A DNA stretch of 64,000 nt from Caldisericota bacterium (lineage in GTDB: Bacteria > Caldisericota > JANLFM01), in the NCBI GenBank assembly GCA_024655965.1, contig JANLFL010000004.1, positions 70,084 to 134,083 of the forward strand, written 5' to 3'. Position 1 is the stretch's first letter. Each line of letters opens with the position of its first letter. A program made the position numbers and the translations under genes. The notes beneath the pieces were generated by a model. The model made no database searches. It was not told the DNA's origin and worked only from the letters and a program-made list of their open reading frames with translations. Shown here one piece after another: positions 1 to 48,523 of the stretch.

Positions 1-1163
1 GCAAACAAGGGGAAAAAGTACTTCCCTGCCCTTCGCCCCACAACCTCCTGGATCAAGATGCCCATTTCCTCGTTAAAATCCAAAAGCCCCCTTTCCCTTC
101 GGTATTCGATGGGGTCAGGACTGAAAACGCTTGCATAAACCTCCTCAATGGCGTCGATCAAGGCTTCCAGCCTTTCCTGCTTGGTCCCTTTATTGGCCAA
201 AAAGAGGCTTTTGTACTTGCCTGCAAAGGCCGATCCAAGGGTATCTTCAAGTAAACTTGAAGAACGTACAACTAGGGGCCGATCCCCGAAGTCCTCCAGA
301 ACTAAATTCAACCCCGCAACAATCTCCGGGGGCATTGCGGAATTCTTGAAGATTTGCTCGAGGTAAGGGAATTCCTGCCTGATCTCACTCGGGTCCCGAT
401 ATTTAATGGTGGGGAGCTCTTCCAAAGCGTTAAAGTGCAGGAAATCGATTATCCCATCGGAGGTCAAAAACCAGGTTTTGGGAACGGAAAGGTTCCTTAA
501 GGAAATGTTATCCTTTTTGGAAGCCATTAAAATCTGCTGAGCACGGAAGAGCCCAGCCGCCTTCCCTCCCAGCTTCCCGTTTCCCTTCCCTGGACCAATA
601 GTATGAGAGAGGATTTGATAAAAATCCGGGATAGAACAGTACTTCTTGGTGACATTGATGTATTCCAGGTCATCGGAAAAGAATCTTCGGATTAAAGCGA
701 CCCTTATTCCAATGTTCTCTTCCGGGGTAAGGGAGTTCATTCCATCAGGCATGCGAGAGAATTTATCCAGAGCGTTTTTTATCTCCTCCAAGGGGATGTC
801 CCTCTTTTCCGCAGCCATGGTCAGGAAACGAGTCTGTTCGTTTTTGAGCCATTTTTCAACCAGTTTGGTAATGGTCTCCGGAGGAAGTTTCTCCGCAGCA
901 ACCTTGAAGACTCCATCGATAAATCTCTCGAGGTATTCAGGGCTCAATCTGGGTAAGGGCTCGTTTTCGCTCCGGAGAAGTGCGCCTTGCTCCTGCGAAG
1001 AAGTGATGCTCAATTGCTGCATCAAATCTTTAACTTCAAGGATGTTGCATTTAAAAAGGTAGTTCATCATCCTTCGCCCGATCCTTTCCAGAAGCGAAGG
1101 ATTAGAAGCCCTCAGGAGATCGATGAAGACCTGCCATTCAGGTTTAGGAGTTTGGGAATTCAT
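1..1163 (-). CDS. PEP/pyruvate-binding domain protein, 3' part beyond left edge
   Basis: The reverse strand is open from an ATG at 1163 to the left edge, about 387 codons, so the gene is cut by the window. The start overlaps the stop of the upstream paralogue as ATGA, so the two are translationally coupled. A glycine-rich GGKAAGLF motif near residues 199-206 and a VRSSSLLED segment near 294-303 are the nucleotide/pyruvate-binding signature of the N-terminal domain of PEP synthase and pyruvate phosphate dikinase. The last visible residues (LIQEVVG) continue this domain. Whether the phosphohistidine and PEP-binding barrel domains follow cannot be seen. The protein begins with about 190 residues lacking a domain I recognise. 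It is probably a relative of the 980-residue neighbour; the reaction is unknown. Confidence 0.75.
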   Translation of the reverse strand, partial: MNSQTPKPEWQVFIDLLRASNPSLLERIGRRMMNYLFKCNILEVKDLMQQLSITSSQEQGALLRSENEPLPRLSPEYLERFIDGVFKVAAEKLPPETITKLVEKWLKNEQTRFLTMAAEKRDIPLEEIKNALDKFSRMPDGMNSLTPEENIGIRVALIRRFFSDDLEYINVTKKYCSIPDFYQILSHTIGPGKGNGKLGGKAAGLFRAQQILMASKKDNISLRNLSVPKTWFLTSDGIIDFLHFNALEELPTIKYRDPSEIRQEFPYLEQIFKNSAMPPEIVAGLNLVLEDFGDRPLVVRSSSLLEDTLGSAFAGKYKSLFLANKGTKQERLEALIDAIEEVYASVFSPDPIEYRRERGLLDFNEEMGILIQEVVGRRAGKYFFPLF

Positions 1164-4102
1164 TCCATTCCTTCCGGTTTAAATATTACCCCCCAGCACT
1201 TTCTTCCGTCCATCTTGATTAAAAGGGGATGGTCAAACCGATAATGCTTCAGATATTTGGTCTCCTTCATTGATGAGGCCCTATCCAGGAATTGGAAGTC
1301 CATCCAGGATTCCTCCTTCTTTAAAGACACTGTGAAATAACCAATTTTCAAGGCGGACAGGTTATGGAAAAAATGAGACCCCTGGGAGGGCTCGACCTCA
1401 ATCCCGGAAAAAGGAGTCTCCACGATGGTTTTCACCCCGCTAATTTCCTCCCACCGGACAGGAATTCCCAGCCATGGATCAGCTGACCCCCACCTCCCCG
1501 GCCCAATAAGAACATAGGGCTTCCCCTCCCCTTCCAGCTCTCGGTTGATAATCCCGACCTCCCGGGCAATCTGGGGGGTCAAGGAAGGGTCAAAATTTTC
1601 CCTTTTCACCAAAACTAAATCCTTGATATCGTCCAGGATGCCGTTCCCCAGGACTTTTCGGGAAAAGCAGAGAACCCTCGAGGAGTTCAGGTTTTCGGGG
1701 TCGATCTCCACCATTTCCCCCCGCCCCATCATGGGCCTCAGCTGGAGAAATCCTAAATAGAGGGAAGTGGTTCCATCCCCGGTAATCTTGCAAGCGAACT
1801 CCATTTCCACGGGAGAGCCAAGGGAATCCTCGGCGAGTTGGAGAAGGGAGACGAGTGTTTCCGCAAAGGGGAAAATGGTCCCGGAAAGGATCAAGGGAAA
1901 ATTAAGAACCCTGGGCCCTTTACCTGAAACTCCCGGGGAAAGGCGGTCCTCTCCGGGGGAGTAAGTTGAGGCAAGGAATTTCAAAACCCCATCCTTCTCT
2001 GCTTCATCCAAACCGAGTTTCAGAAGATACTGGTCCTCTTCGGTGAAGGGTTTACTGACCATTGGATTGAGGTCAATCGCGTAAAAGGTCCTCTGTGATC
2101 GGGAGAGCAAATCCTCTATGCTGTTGTATGCGGGAGGAGTTTTGGGATAGCGGGGAACAAAGGAATAAGAAGCTTCCCCCTCGACAACGGTTTTCCCTAA
2201 CCCCAAAGCGATATTTACAATCCCATCTTCCGGCTTGGACCCCCCAAAGGGGTAATAATTGAATGATTTCGCCACGCCGGAAAAATCCGGGTAAAAGCGC
2301 TTATCCCTCTTTTCCCCGACAACTTCCTGGATAATCACCGCCATTTTTTCCTCCTGTATTTGGTTGTTCGTGGACTTCAAGTAAGTTTTTGCATTCTGAA
2401 AAAAGGTGGAAGCATAGACCAGTTTGATAGCGTTCACCAGGCTCAAAAAGCGGTAATCCAGCTCCGGAAAACTGTTGGGGATCATTTTTGTATAATAAAT
2501 CCCGGCAAAGGGGTGATAAAGGGCATCCTCCAGGAGGCTCGAGGAACGGATGGCGAGCGGGGTTTTAACCTCGCGAATGAAGTTTCTCAAGTCCCCGAGT
2601 ACTGTGGGAGGAAGGGAGGAGTTCAGGAAGGCTGTTGCCAGGCGAATATCGGAACTTTCCTCGTAAGCCAGGGGGATCAACTTGTTTGATTCCAGGAACT
2701 CCTCAAAAATATCGGTCCCTAAGACAAGGGTCCGAGGAATTTCAATCTTTACCTGGGGAAATTTGGAAAAATCGAAATTTGAGGCCAGGACCTTATCAAA
2801 GAAAACCAATCCCCTGGCTTTCCCCCCCAGGGACCCTCCGCCCATCCGGCAAAAATGCCACTGGTCGACTTTAAATCTCCTCGAATAGGGGACCACTTTC
2901 CCGATTTGCTTTTCCATCCTCTGAGAGTTCAGGAGGTGGGATAGTTTCCTCCGAAATTCATCCGGGGTTTGAACTTCTTGAAATGAAGGACCCTCGAGGG
3001 ATGAAGCAACGGAAAATTCAGCCCGAGCGAGGAACCACCTCTTAAGGTCTCCTCCCTTGAAGGAGGCATAAAGGGAATCGGAAGGTAAACTGTCCACAAT
3101 GTACAAAAGAGTTTCCACTGAGGGGATCCTGTGGAGCATCCTTTCCCCATTTTCTTTTAACACGAGTTCCCCGAAACCGAACCTTTCGGAGAGGGCTTTT
3201 TTGAGGTCAATCTCCAAGCGGGGAGAGTTCTTCAAAATCAAATCAACCCCCAGCCCGGCAGCCCAATCTGAAACGGAACTTTCCGAAGATTGAAGGATGA
3301 TGGGAAGGTTCGGGTCAACCGAGCGGATGTATTTCACTAATTCCCATCCGGCTGATTGATCATCTTTTTCTTTAAAAGGGAAACTTCCGTCGGTAATCAC
3401 CCCCAGAAAATGCCCCTGGAACTTCCGGAAGAGGTCAATAGCCTCATCAAAGGTGGTGGCGAGGTGGACTCTTGGCCTTGCCCTTTGTTTGATCATCCTT
3501 TCCTCAAAGGGAAGTTTCTCCTCCAACTGCCGGGAGGTTAGTTCCCAGAGCATGCGGTAAAGAAGGTTAATATACGAGGAATAGAAATCGGGAGAGTCTT
3601 CAACCAGGAGCACGTTGGGAATTCCGGCAATCATTGCATCATGCTCCCCGTTGATCATATCCTCCATTAATTGAACGATGCTGACCACAAGGCGGCCATC
3701 ACCTTGCCAAAGGAAAACCTGATCGAAAGGCCCTTTCCCTCTGTTCTTGAGATAGGAAAAAACCTCTTGGGAATTGAATCCCAGGGCGACAATTGGGGAC
3801 CGGGGATTGATTTTCCTGAATTCCCGAGAGGATTTTAAAGTTTCCTCGTCAAAGGACCGGAGGGCAAGTATGGCCATATCGAAGTCAGAGGCAGGGATTT
3901 CCCCGGCTTCCTCAAGTGAGTGAGCGTGGATTATTTTGGGGATGTATCCCAAATCTCGTTGTTTGTAGGCCTCATTAAATAAGTCAGAAAGCCTCCCGTC
4001 CTCCTCAAGGACAAAGAAATCGTAAGGGGTAGCAATTAGAAGCAGCCCCTTAACCTGGAAGGGCATTAACTTCCGGAATTGCGAATAATAAAAGCTTCCC
4101 AA
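1160..4102 (-). CDS. Two receiver-like domains fused to a PEP/pyruvate-binding domain (PEP synthase-like)
   Basis: This 980-residue protein has an N-terminal part resembling response-regulator receivers. A first, degenerate unit spans about 14-150. A second, about 160-310, has LLVEDSPD and VITDGSFP, which place aspartates where the acidic pocket and phosphoacceptor usually lie. Then comes a PEP-synthase/PPDK N-terminal ATP-grasp-like domain with GGKARGLVFF near 425-436 and IRSSSLLEDALYHPFAG near 515-531. The C-terminal part has a conserved-looking VLIGPGRWGSADPWLG segment. I see no swivelling phosphohistidine domain and no PEP-binding TIM barrel, so it is not a standard PEP synthase. The listed start is TTG at 4102; an ATG at 4066 (MPFQVKG) is also possible. 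It lies 77 bases downstream of glutamate dehydrogenase and overlaps the next paralogue by ATGA. Catalytic role is unproven; signal-controlled binding or phosphorylation of pyruvate is only a guess. Confidence 0.8.
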   Translation of the reverse strand: MGSFYYSQFRKLMPFQVKGLLLIATPYDFFVLEEDGRLSDLFNEAYKQRDLGYIPKIIHAHSLEEAGEIPASDFDMAILALRSFDEETLKSSREFRKINPRSPIVALGFNSQEVFSYLKNRGKGPFDQVFLWQGDGRLVVSIVQLMEDMINGEHDAMIAGIPNVLLVEDSPDFYSSYINLLYRMLWELTSRQLEEKLPFEERMIKQRARPRVHLATTFDEAIDLFRKFQGHFLGVITDGSFPFKEKDDQSAGWELVKYIRSVDPNLPIILQSSESSVSDWAAGLGVDLILKNSPRLEIDLKKALSERFGFGELVLKENGERMLHRIPSVETLLYIVDSLPSDSLYASFKGGDLKRWFLARAEFSVASSLEGPSFQEVQTPDEFRRKLSHLLNSQRMEKQIGKVVPYSRRFKVDQWHFCRMGGGSLGGKARGLVFFDKVLASNFDFSKFPQVKIEIPRTLVLGTDIFEEFLESNKLIPLAYEESSDIRLATAFLNSSLPPTVLGDLRNFIREVKTPLAIRSSSLLEDALYHPFAGIYYTKMIPNSFPELDYRFLSLVNAIKLVYASTFFQNAKTYLKSTNNQIQEEKMAVIIQEVVGEKRDKRFYPDFSGVAKSFNYYPFGGSKPEDGIVNIALGLGKTVVEGEASYSFVPRYPKTPPAYNSIEDLLSRSQRTFYAIDLNPMVSKPFTEEDQYLLKLGLDEAEKDGVLKFLASTYSPGEDRLSPGVSGKGPRVLNFPLILSGTIFPFAETLVSLLQLAEDSLGSPVEMEFACKITGDGTTSLYLGFLQLRPMMGRGEMVEIDPENLNSSRVLCFSRKVLGNGILDDIKDLVLVKRENFDPSLTPQIAREVGIINRELEGEGKPYVLIGPGRWGSADPWLGIPVRWEEISGVKTIVETPFSGIEVEPSQGSHFFHNLSALKIGYFTVSLKKEESWMDFQFLDRASSMKETKYLKHYRFDHPLLIKMDGRKCWGVIFKPEGME

Positions 4103-5677: not shown

Positions 5678-5753
5678 TGGTGGGCGGACCAGGGTTTGAA
5701 CCTGGGACCTCCTGCTTGTAAGGCAGGCGCTCTGACCGCTGAGCTATCCGCCC
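5678..5753 (-). tRNA. tRNA-Val (anticodon UAC)
   Basis: The reverse complement folds as a complete cloverleaf. The acceptor stem is GGGCGGA/TCCGCCC, the anticodon stem is CCTGC/GCAGG around loop CTTACAA (anticodon TAC), and there is a GGTTCAAACC T-arm. Discriminator A is followed by an encoded CCA (5680-5678). It reads GUA valine codons, and GUN by wobble. Confidence 0.97.
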
Positions 5754-38359: not shown

Positions 38360-38431
38360 GGGGACATAGCTCAAAGGGAGAGCGCTTCCCTCGCACGGAA
38401 GAGGTTGCGGGTTCGACTCCCGCTGTCTCCA
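38360..38431 (+). tRNA. tRNA-Ala (anticodon CGC)
   Basis: Complete cloverleaf: acceptor GGGGACA/TGTCTCC with a G3-U70 wobble, the classic alanine identity pair, then discriminator A. The anticodon stem is CTTCC/GGAAG around loop CTCGCAC (anticodon CGC). The D-loop is short and the T-arm is GCGGG/CCCGC. CCA is not encoded. It reads GCG codons. Confidence 0.96.
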
Positions 38432-48393: not shown

Positions 48394-48418
48394 CGAAAAA
48401 GCCCCCAGCATAGGAGCT
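48394..48418 (-). terminator. TPP riboswitch expression platform: intrinsic terminator
   Basis: Minus strand: a stem AGCTCC (48418-48413) / GGGGCT (48405-48400) around a seven-base loop, then TTTTT (48400-48396). The competing antiterminator pairs 48405-48414 with the aptamer segment at 48434-48443. Confidence 0.75.
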
Positions 48419-48426
48419 TCTCGTTC

Positions 48427-48516
48427 GTATTTCCCTACGCTGGTATTACCCAGTTCAGGTTCGATGGGTTGGAGCCGGCACAAGCTCCTCTCAGCCAAAA
48501 AGGCACCCCATTGTCA
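48427..48516 (-). promoter_or_regulatory. TPP riboswitch (THI element) upstream of thiT
   Basis: Minus strand shows the conserved core of the thiamine pyrophosphate aptamer: GGGGTGCC near 48509-48502, GGCTGAGA near 48496-48489, then CGAACCTGAACTGGGTAATA and CCAGCGTAGGGAA down to 48431. The order and spacing fit the family. TPP binding should favour the terminator and lower thiT-thiN expression. Confidence 0.97.
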
Positions 48517-48523
48517 TTCTCTA

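Follow-up and report, generated by a model that had tools for sequence, protein, structure and literature searches.

We analysed a 64,000-nucleotide stretch of the 1.73 Mb genome of a Caldisericota bacterium (hereafter the window; bases 70084-134083 of contig JANLFL010000004.1, C42), at the start of which a glutamate dehydrogenase (GDH) gene, gdh1, adjoins the genes of two large proteins with an ATP-grasp domain of the PPDK_N family: a 980-residue protein in which two receiver-like modules precede that domain (REC-PPDK_N), and a paralogue, PPDK2. Our main result is that the linkage of these genes to gdh is conserved and reaches well beyond this genome and its close relatives. As the best explanation, to which we assign a probability of roughly 45%, we propose that the two proteins form an ATP-dependent, receiver-gated control system dedicated to GDH, which would probably operate through phosphotransfer.

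Full-length homologs of REC-PPDK_N with 35-66% identity were found in relatives and in other phyla, and such conservation of architecture across many phyla indicates that the arrangement of the 980-residue protein is not due to chance. A cross-phylum set was formed from the best 80 loci of a genome-wide scan, chosen by similarity to the query, and includes records from Bacteroidetes, Ignavibacteria, Calditrichaceae, Acidobacteria, Gemmatimonadota, Krumholzibacteriia, Zixiibacteriota, Planctomycetota and others. A gdh gene is present in 43 of these loci, the runner-up among neighbouring families occurring in 6, and lies within 5 kb of 47 of the 91 genes in the set, many of whose contigs are short. 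Because these loci had been picked by their similarity to the query, two samples not so chosen were drawn. REC-PPDK_N occurs in 23 of 60 genomes sampled at random from the Acidobacteriota (24 full copies), with gdh within 5 kb of 21 of the 24 copies and, for 18, directly upstream on the same strand. Similarly, 58 of 61 sampled Bacteroides genomes carry REC-PPDK_N, and gdh lies within 5 kb in 36 of the 58, or in 36 of the 41 in which it shares the contig, the same-contig gdh lying farther off in the other 5; here the closest gdh is nearly always upstream and divergent. A rough uniform model, in which shared descent is left out of account, puts the probability of such linkage arising by chance below 1e-39 in both samples (approximately 1e-40 in the Acidobacteriota); this figure should not be read literally, and the recurrence of the linkage in several phyla is independent of it. 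The co-occurrence with gdh raised in a preliminary description of this DNA, made from the letters of the window, is thereby borne out in all three sets.

In the window the genes are transcribed from the minus strand in the order gdh1, REC-PPDK_N and the start of PPDK2, with gdh1 77 bases upstream of the 980-residue gene (Table 1). The stop codon of the latter shares four bases with the ATG of PPDK2 (ATGA, 1163-1160), so the two genes are probably translationally coupled, in agreement with the coupled paralogue of the preliminary description. PPDK2 had also been described as truncated, which holds insofar as it is cut at the window edge; however, an 8-N scaffold gap stands at the window start, both flanks of which repeat the same ~55 bases (window 1-60 and L008:10021-10139), and this is an assembly artefact splitting an intact gene. 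Read across the gap, with the DNA beyond the window added, PPDK2 has approximately 770 residues, intact homologs in relatives having 767-801. Beyond it, outside the stretch available to the preliminary description, lies a second gdh (gdh2) encoding an NADP-type enzyme of 446 residues, which completes the unit gdh1 - REC-PPDK_N - PPDK2 - gdh2. The best NCBIfam match of gdh1 is GdhA_Arch, under that model's cut-off.

This order is complete in four genomes of the phylum (G000, G009, G015 and G021) and partial in others, while family f6 has PPDK2 and gdh1 and lacks REC-PPDK_N. In Acidobacteria and Bacteroides, REC-PPDK_N adjoins a GDH2-type gdh; Ignavibacteria possess gdh2-REC-gdh2-REC-gdh1 arrays, and alternating gdh/REC-PPDK_N arrays occur at loci L042, L082 and L088. 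In a quick tree built from 88 GDHs, the GDH1s encoded in PPDK2 clusters, including those of Bacteroidota, form a single clade (14 rows, SH-aLRT 100), and the GDH1 of phylum-mates without the module, at ~45% identity, belongs to another clade. A single 'unlinked' row falls within the PPDK2-linked clade, that of G002, whose module lies on another contig. Linked GDHs thus appear distinct from unlinked ones, clearly so for PPDK2-linked GDH1 and less so for GDH2, and the tree, together with the gene orders across genomes, suggests that PPDK2 may serve GDH1 and REC-PPDK_N may serve GDH2. Furthermore, PPDK2 homologs within gdh clusters of two Bacteroidota (L040:5098-8673 and L108:1335-4523, both on the minus strand) carry a C-terminal NTP_transf_2 nucleotidyltransferase domain (GSTKNG...SDIDL), a fusion that suits a modifying role, and by eye a GAF-like N-terminus. 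An apparent GDH-PPDK2 fusion in G077 consists of overlapping long open reading frames and was taken as no fusion.

Several Bacteroidales encode a PPDK_N protein of ~1150 residues with receiver-like matches, paired with one of 990 residues, and such tandem genes (about 1150-1215 and 990 residues) are found at L050, L091, L107 and L114. Subunits of a 2-oxoacid:ferredoxin oxidoreductase directly precede the pair at L050, L091 and L114, gdh following it at L114; L107 has the pair and gdh without the oxidoreductase. A GltA-type glutamate synthase subunit is also among the neighbours. Together with the nucleotidyltransferase fusions, these neighbours fit a role at 2-oxoglutarate/glutamate. By inspection, a class V aminotransferase-like gene and a SerA-like gene come after the gdh/PPDK_N unit at L125, L126 and L127, and after gdh2 at L131. 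Two human-faecal records labelled 'Bacteriophage sp.' (MT835811.1 and MT835667.1) also contain full-length REC-PPDK_N genes and are probably bacterial DNA within a phage collection.

The domain order of the 980-residue protein is REC1-REC2-linker-PPDK_N-new C-terminal domain. The receiver family PF00072 matches the window protein alone only weakly (E = 0.13) and exceeds the Pfam cut-off in the Bacteroides orthologue at L144 (E = 5.3e-9). A profile built on 57 relatives matches solved response regulators, the REC1 match covering profile positions 32-123, and in an AlphaFold model (pLDDT 87.4) the strands and helices of REC1 alternate; a fold search with this model returned PleD, PorX and CheY-type receivers among its matches. 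On the strength of the profile, the L144 match and the model, both receiver-like modules are real as folds. They are nevertheless unequal. In alignment A2 of the 57 relatives, the source of all residue counts given here, the REC2 pocket is intact, with E168, D238, serine or threonine at 272, and K291 kept in 57/57 and D169 in 54/57, and REC1, a pseudo-receiver, lacks a conserved aspartate at the acceptor position. The preliminary description, which had placed two receiver-like modules on the ATP-binding half of phosphoenolpyruvate (PEP) synthase and had asked after their phosphoacceptor residues, therefore holds in full for REC2 and for REC1 as regards the fold.

No histidine kinase family recurrently adjoins REC-PPDK_N genes in the loci examined. 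The sole one identified, a PAS histidine kinase in the gdh/REC-PPDK_N array at L042 (L042:12918-15667), shares 14 bases with the end of REC-PPDK_N in an array that also has a LuxR-type response regulator, and is a possible candidate for a cognate kinase.

PF01326 (PPDK_N) exceeds its cut-off in both proteins, and no other Pfam domain does so in either. The ATP-site residues K428, R519, E766, E768 and Q787 are each kept in 57/57 relatives; in an alignment with the PPDK of this genome the lysine and arginine positions correspond, the E/Q stretch being unreliable. Neither protein has a Pfam match to the phosphohistidine domain (PEP-utilizers, PF00391) or to the PEP/pyruvate TIM-barrel domain, and both end after the C-terminal domain. 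The absence of these parts from the 980-residue protein, as first described, is thus upheld, and the completed PPDK2 likewise falls short of a full PEP synthase. When a separate phosphohistidine subunit was sought in the genome, PF00391 was found only in a complete PPDK encoded on contig C11 and in a DhaM-like protein (G000:C11:114885, L133), by inspection an 856-residue fusion of dihydroxyacetone phosphotransferase, HPr and enzyme I regions. NCBIfam gave weak matches to the rifampicin phosphotransferase and PigC/RedH families, far under cut-off, and the top Foldseek match of the 980-residue model is HpeI (9goj). The likeness of the linker to DUF5752 (PF19027) is seen at L042 (E = 3.5e-5) and L107 (E = 1.4e-5). 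An AlphaFold model of PPDK2, from a 12-row alignment, reached pLDDT 62.6 and was not used.

The C-terminal domain of ~185 residues occupies the place of the phosphohistidine domain in PEP synthase and has no credible match among Pfam or PDB profiles. GxGRWG, LG, E and SxGxHFF are invariant in it across both subfamilies, and H910 is kept in 56/56 relatives. We considered and rejected a hidden phosphohistidine swivel domain, since in a comparison by hhalign with 22 genuine domains of this type Probab reached 0.3, no higher than with shuffled columns. A likeness between SxGSHFF...GYFTV and TSHAA...GIPAVVG can be seen by eye, and H910 begins a helix in the model, but in view of this negative profile test such a domain is speculation only.

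Table 1. Features of the gdh-linked PPDK_N locus, in window coordinates.
Feature	Position	Strand	Remarks
Second PPDK_N gene (PPDK2), 5' part, 387 residues	3..1163	-	Remainder of 401 residues at L008:8869-10074
REC-REC-PPDK_N gene	1160..4102	-	980 residues; TTG start
C-terminal domain, no known family, residues 797-980	1163..1714	-	GPGRWGS 867-873, E895, SQGSHFF 906-912
PPDK_N ATP-grasp domain, residues 424-796	1715..2833	-	PF01326, E = 8.5e-34
Helical linker, residues 309-420	2843..3178	-	Weakly DUF5752-like in relatives; helices in model
REC2, complete pocket, residues ~161-308	3179..3622	-	Insertion after helix 1; E168, D169, D238, S/T272, K291
D238 codon, predicted phospho-acceptor Asp	3389..3391	-	Invariant, 57/57
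REC1, pseudo-receiver, residues ~17-147	3662..4054	-	Profile match; strand/helix alternation in model
gdh1, glutamate dehydrogenase, 428 residues	4180..5466	-	Pfam ELFV dehydrogenase, E = 7.6e-69; clade accompanying PPDK2

Elsewhere the window holds a thiamine pyrophosphate (TPP) riboswitch (48415-48520, minus strand; 66.7 bits) and tRNA genes at 5681-5753 (minus strand) and 38360-38431 (plus strand).

The proposal that the PPDK_N proteins regulate GDH draws on the gdh linkage in three samples, the conserved gene order, the separate clade of linked GDH1s, the invariant receiver and ATP-grasp residues, and the presence in family f6 of PPDK2 with GDH1 alone. In the mechanism that we infer, the PEP-synthase-type ATP-grasp domain of each protein would bind ATP and cleave it, and the C-terminal domain with its GxGRWG and SxGxHFF motifs would either bind the target or carry a phosphoryl group, with H910 as the candidate carrier. 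The most likely acceptor would be the cognate GDH, of the GDH1 clade for PPDK2 and GDH2 for REC-PPDK_N, which would be switched through reversible modification; phosphorylation of D238 in REC2 may gate the activity of REC-PPDK_N, and REC1 would be a structural pseudo-receiver.

Several points weigh against this proposal. A regulator of a metabolite pool would give the same gdh linkage. No gdh was found near some REC-PPDK_N genes (e.g. those of L063, L067 and G209). The columns in which linked and unlinked GDHs differ show no single obvious modification site; several residues are clade-specific and none is telling, in a comparison confounded by phylogeny. For H910, a carrier role is proposed from position and invariance, the hhalign score against phosphohistidine domains (Probab 0.3) being within that of shuffles. 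It is more tentative still that the proteins represent a new class of post-translational control, present in most Bacteroides and many phyla, in which a receiver-gated ATP-grasp enzyme derived from PEP synthase would phosphorylate or otherwise ATP-dependently switch GDH, with a new catalytic or docking domain at the C-terminus.

Among the alternatives, the two proteins could be metabolic enzymes, namely ATP-dependent phosphotransferases or ligases whose substrate is a small molecule of the 2-oxoglutarate/glutamate node or a product of it; the receiver would then be an allosteric switch, and gdh would lie nearby through shared substrates. To our knowledge all characterised PPDK_N proteins have small-molecule substrates (pyruvate, rifampicin, phenols and prodiginine precursors), the top Foldseek match to HpeI and the oxidoreductase and glutamate synthase neighbours point the same way, and the new C-terminal domain could serve as a substrate site. 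We nonetheless consider such a role unlikely, though a serious contender, as these enzymes require a phosphohistidine domain, none being detectable in either protein, and as the pairing of partner type with GDH clade and the alternating arrays better fit a protein target. A self-contained relay, in which the ATP-grasp and C-terminal half makes a phosphohistidine that is passed to D238 of REC2, in cis or from PPDK2 in trans, would replace a histidine kinase and bind GDH through a conformational output. Although this would account for an intact receiver and an intact ATP-grasp domain in one chain, for the general lack of a recurrent kinase family beside REC-PPDK_N, and for sensor-like N-terminal variants of PPDK2 such as the GAF-like ones, the lack of homology to phosphohistidine domains and the occurrence of PPDK2 without REC-PPDK_N in family f6 make it improbable.

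Two further readings keep closer to PEP synthase. A split enzyme, of the PEP-synthase or phenylphosphate-synthase-like kind, would consist of ATP-binding subunits here and a phosphohistidine subunit encoded elsewhere, and HpeI, of the HpeH/HpeI pair, is an ATP-binding subunit of that sort. We regard this as very improbable: the phosphohistidine domains found in the genome are confined to the complete PPDK and the DhaM-like phosphotransferase system fusion, a split enzyme gives no reason for the gdh linkage, and we know of no HpeI-type protein with the new C-terminal domain. The preliminary description had favoured a phosphorelay at the pyruvate node, sensing or phosphorylating some component there, and the family name and the presence of a receiver speak for this. 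PPDK_N binds ATP, however, and not pyruvate or PEP; the pyruvate/PEP-binding domain is absent, a complete PPDK is encoded elsewhere, no pyruvate-specific neighbour recurs among the cross-phylum loci, and the recurrent neighbours are enzymes of 2-oxoglutarate and glutamate, so that a pyruvate-node role is unsupported and has the least to recommend it. The earlier observation is thus partly confirmed and its interpretation partly supported, and neither outcome named there as a refutation was seen, the completed PPDK2 being no PEP synthase and REC2 having kept its phospho-pocket.

Compared with known systems, the proteins share with PEP synthase and PPDK (PpsA, PpdK) a PPDK_N ATP-grasp domain with its Lys, Arg, Glu-x-Glu and Gln-x-Arg set, but have neither a detectable phosphohistidine domain nor a TIM barrel, receivers and a new C-terminal domain being added. 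HpeI and the ATP subunits of phenylphosphate-synthase type are likewise stand-alone PPDK_N halves, but without receivers and in a catabolic context, paired with a phosphohistidine subunit. Rifampicin phosphotransferase and PigC/RedH put the PPDK_N domain to other uses; they carry a phosphohistidine domain and, unlike REC-PPDK_N, no receivers, and we know of no link between them and gdh. As in response regulators with enzymatic output (PleD, PorX), N-terminal receivers stand ahead of an effector domain, which here is an ATP-grasp domain rather than a cyclase or phosphatase. The GlnE/GlnD switches of glutamine synthetase offer an analogy only, in that a nitrogen enzyme would be under a dedicated modifying protein and two PPDK2 homologs have a nucleotidyltransferase domain, the catalytic fold and the target being different.

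Full-text literature searches, outside which subscription journals largely lie, returned no published description of a REC-PPDK_N system. At NCBI the Parabacteroides protein, which adjoins gdhA, is named only as a 'PEP/pyruvate-binding domain-containing protein', a name that misleads because the pyruvate site is missing. GDH is a main entry for ammonia in Bacteroides, and classic work reportedly described reversible GDH inactivation in Bacteroides fragilis as well as, for B. thetaiotaomicron, a trans-acting gene close to gdhA. REC-PPDK_N (2.99 kb) directly follows gdh, convergently, in G167 (L148); in G146 and G162 the spacing points to the same arrangement. According to its title, a study by Baggio and Morrison in 1996 (cited in PMC4539542) concerned a trans-acting gene near Bacteroides gdhA that affects GDH activity. 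To the extent that the title describes that factor, REC-PPDK_N resembles it in lying beside gdh in most sampled Bacteroides. In the 1996 work, activity in E. coli reportedly required a segment of ~3 kb. The order at L144 (malic enzyme, gdh, catalase, REC-PPDK_N, gdh) fits B. thetaiotaomicron with the catalase as BT_1971 and suggests BT_1972 as the candidate for REC-PPDK_N; BT_1971 itself was ruled out, being called catalase in two papers. As far as the title allows a comparison, REC-PPDK_N differs from the 1996 factor in not lying directly downstream of either gdh in this order, and with a catalase between gdh and REC-PPDK_N the match is a lead and not a result.

Together, the pair of large uncharacterised PPDK_N proteins beside gdh across many phyla, gut Bacteroides included, is probably a dedicated and unstudied ATP-driven control of GDH, and there is a fair chance that it represents a new kind of control. 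If true, this would put a gene to a long-standing question on Bacteroides GDH and add a new way of wiring a receiver to nitrogen metabolism.

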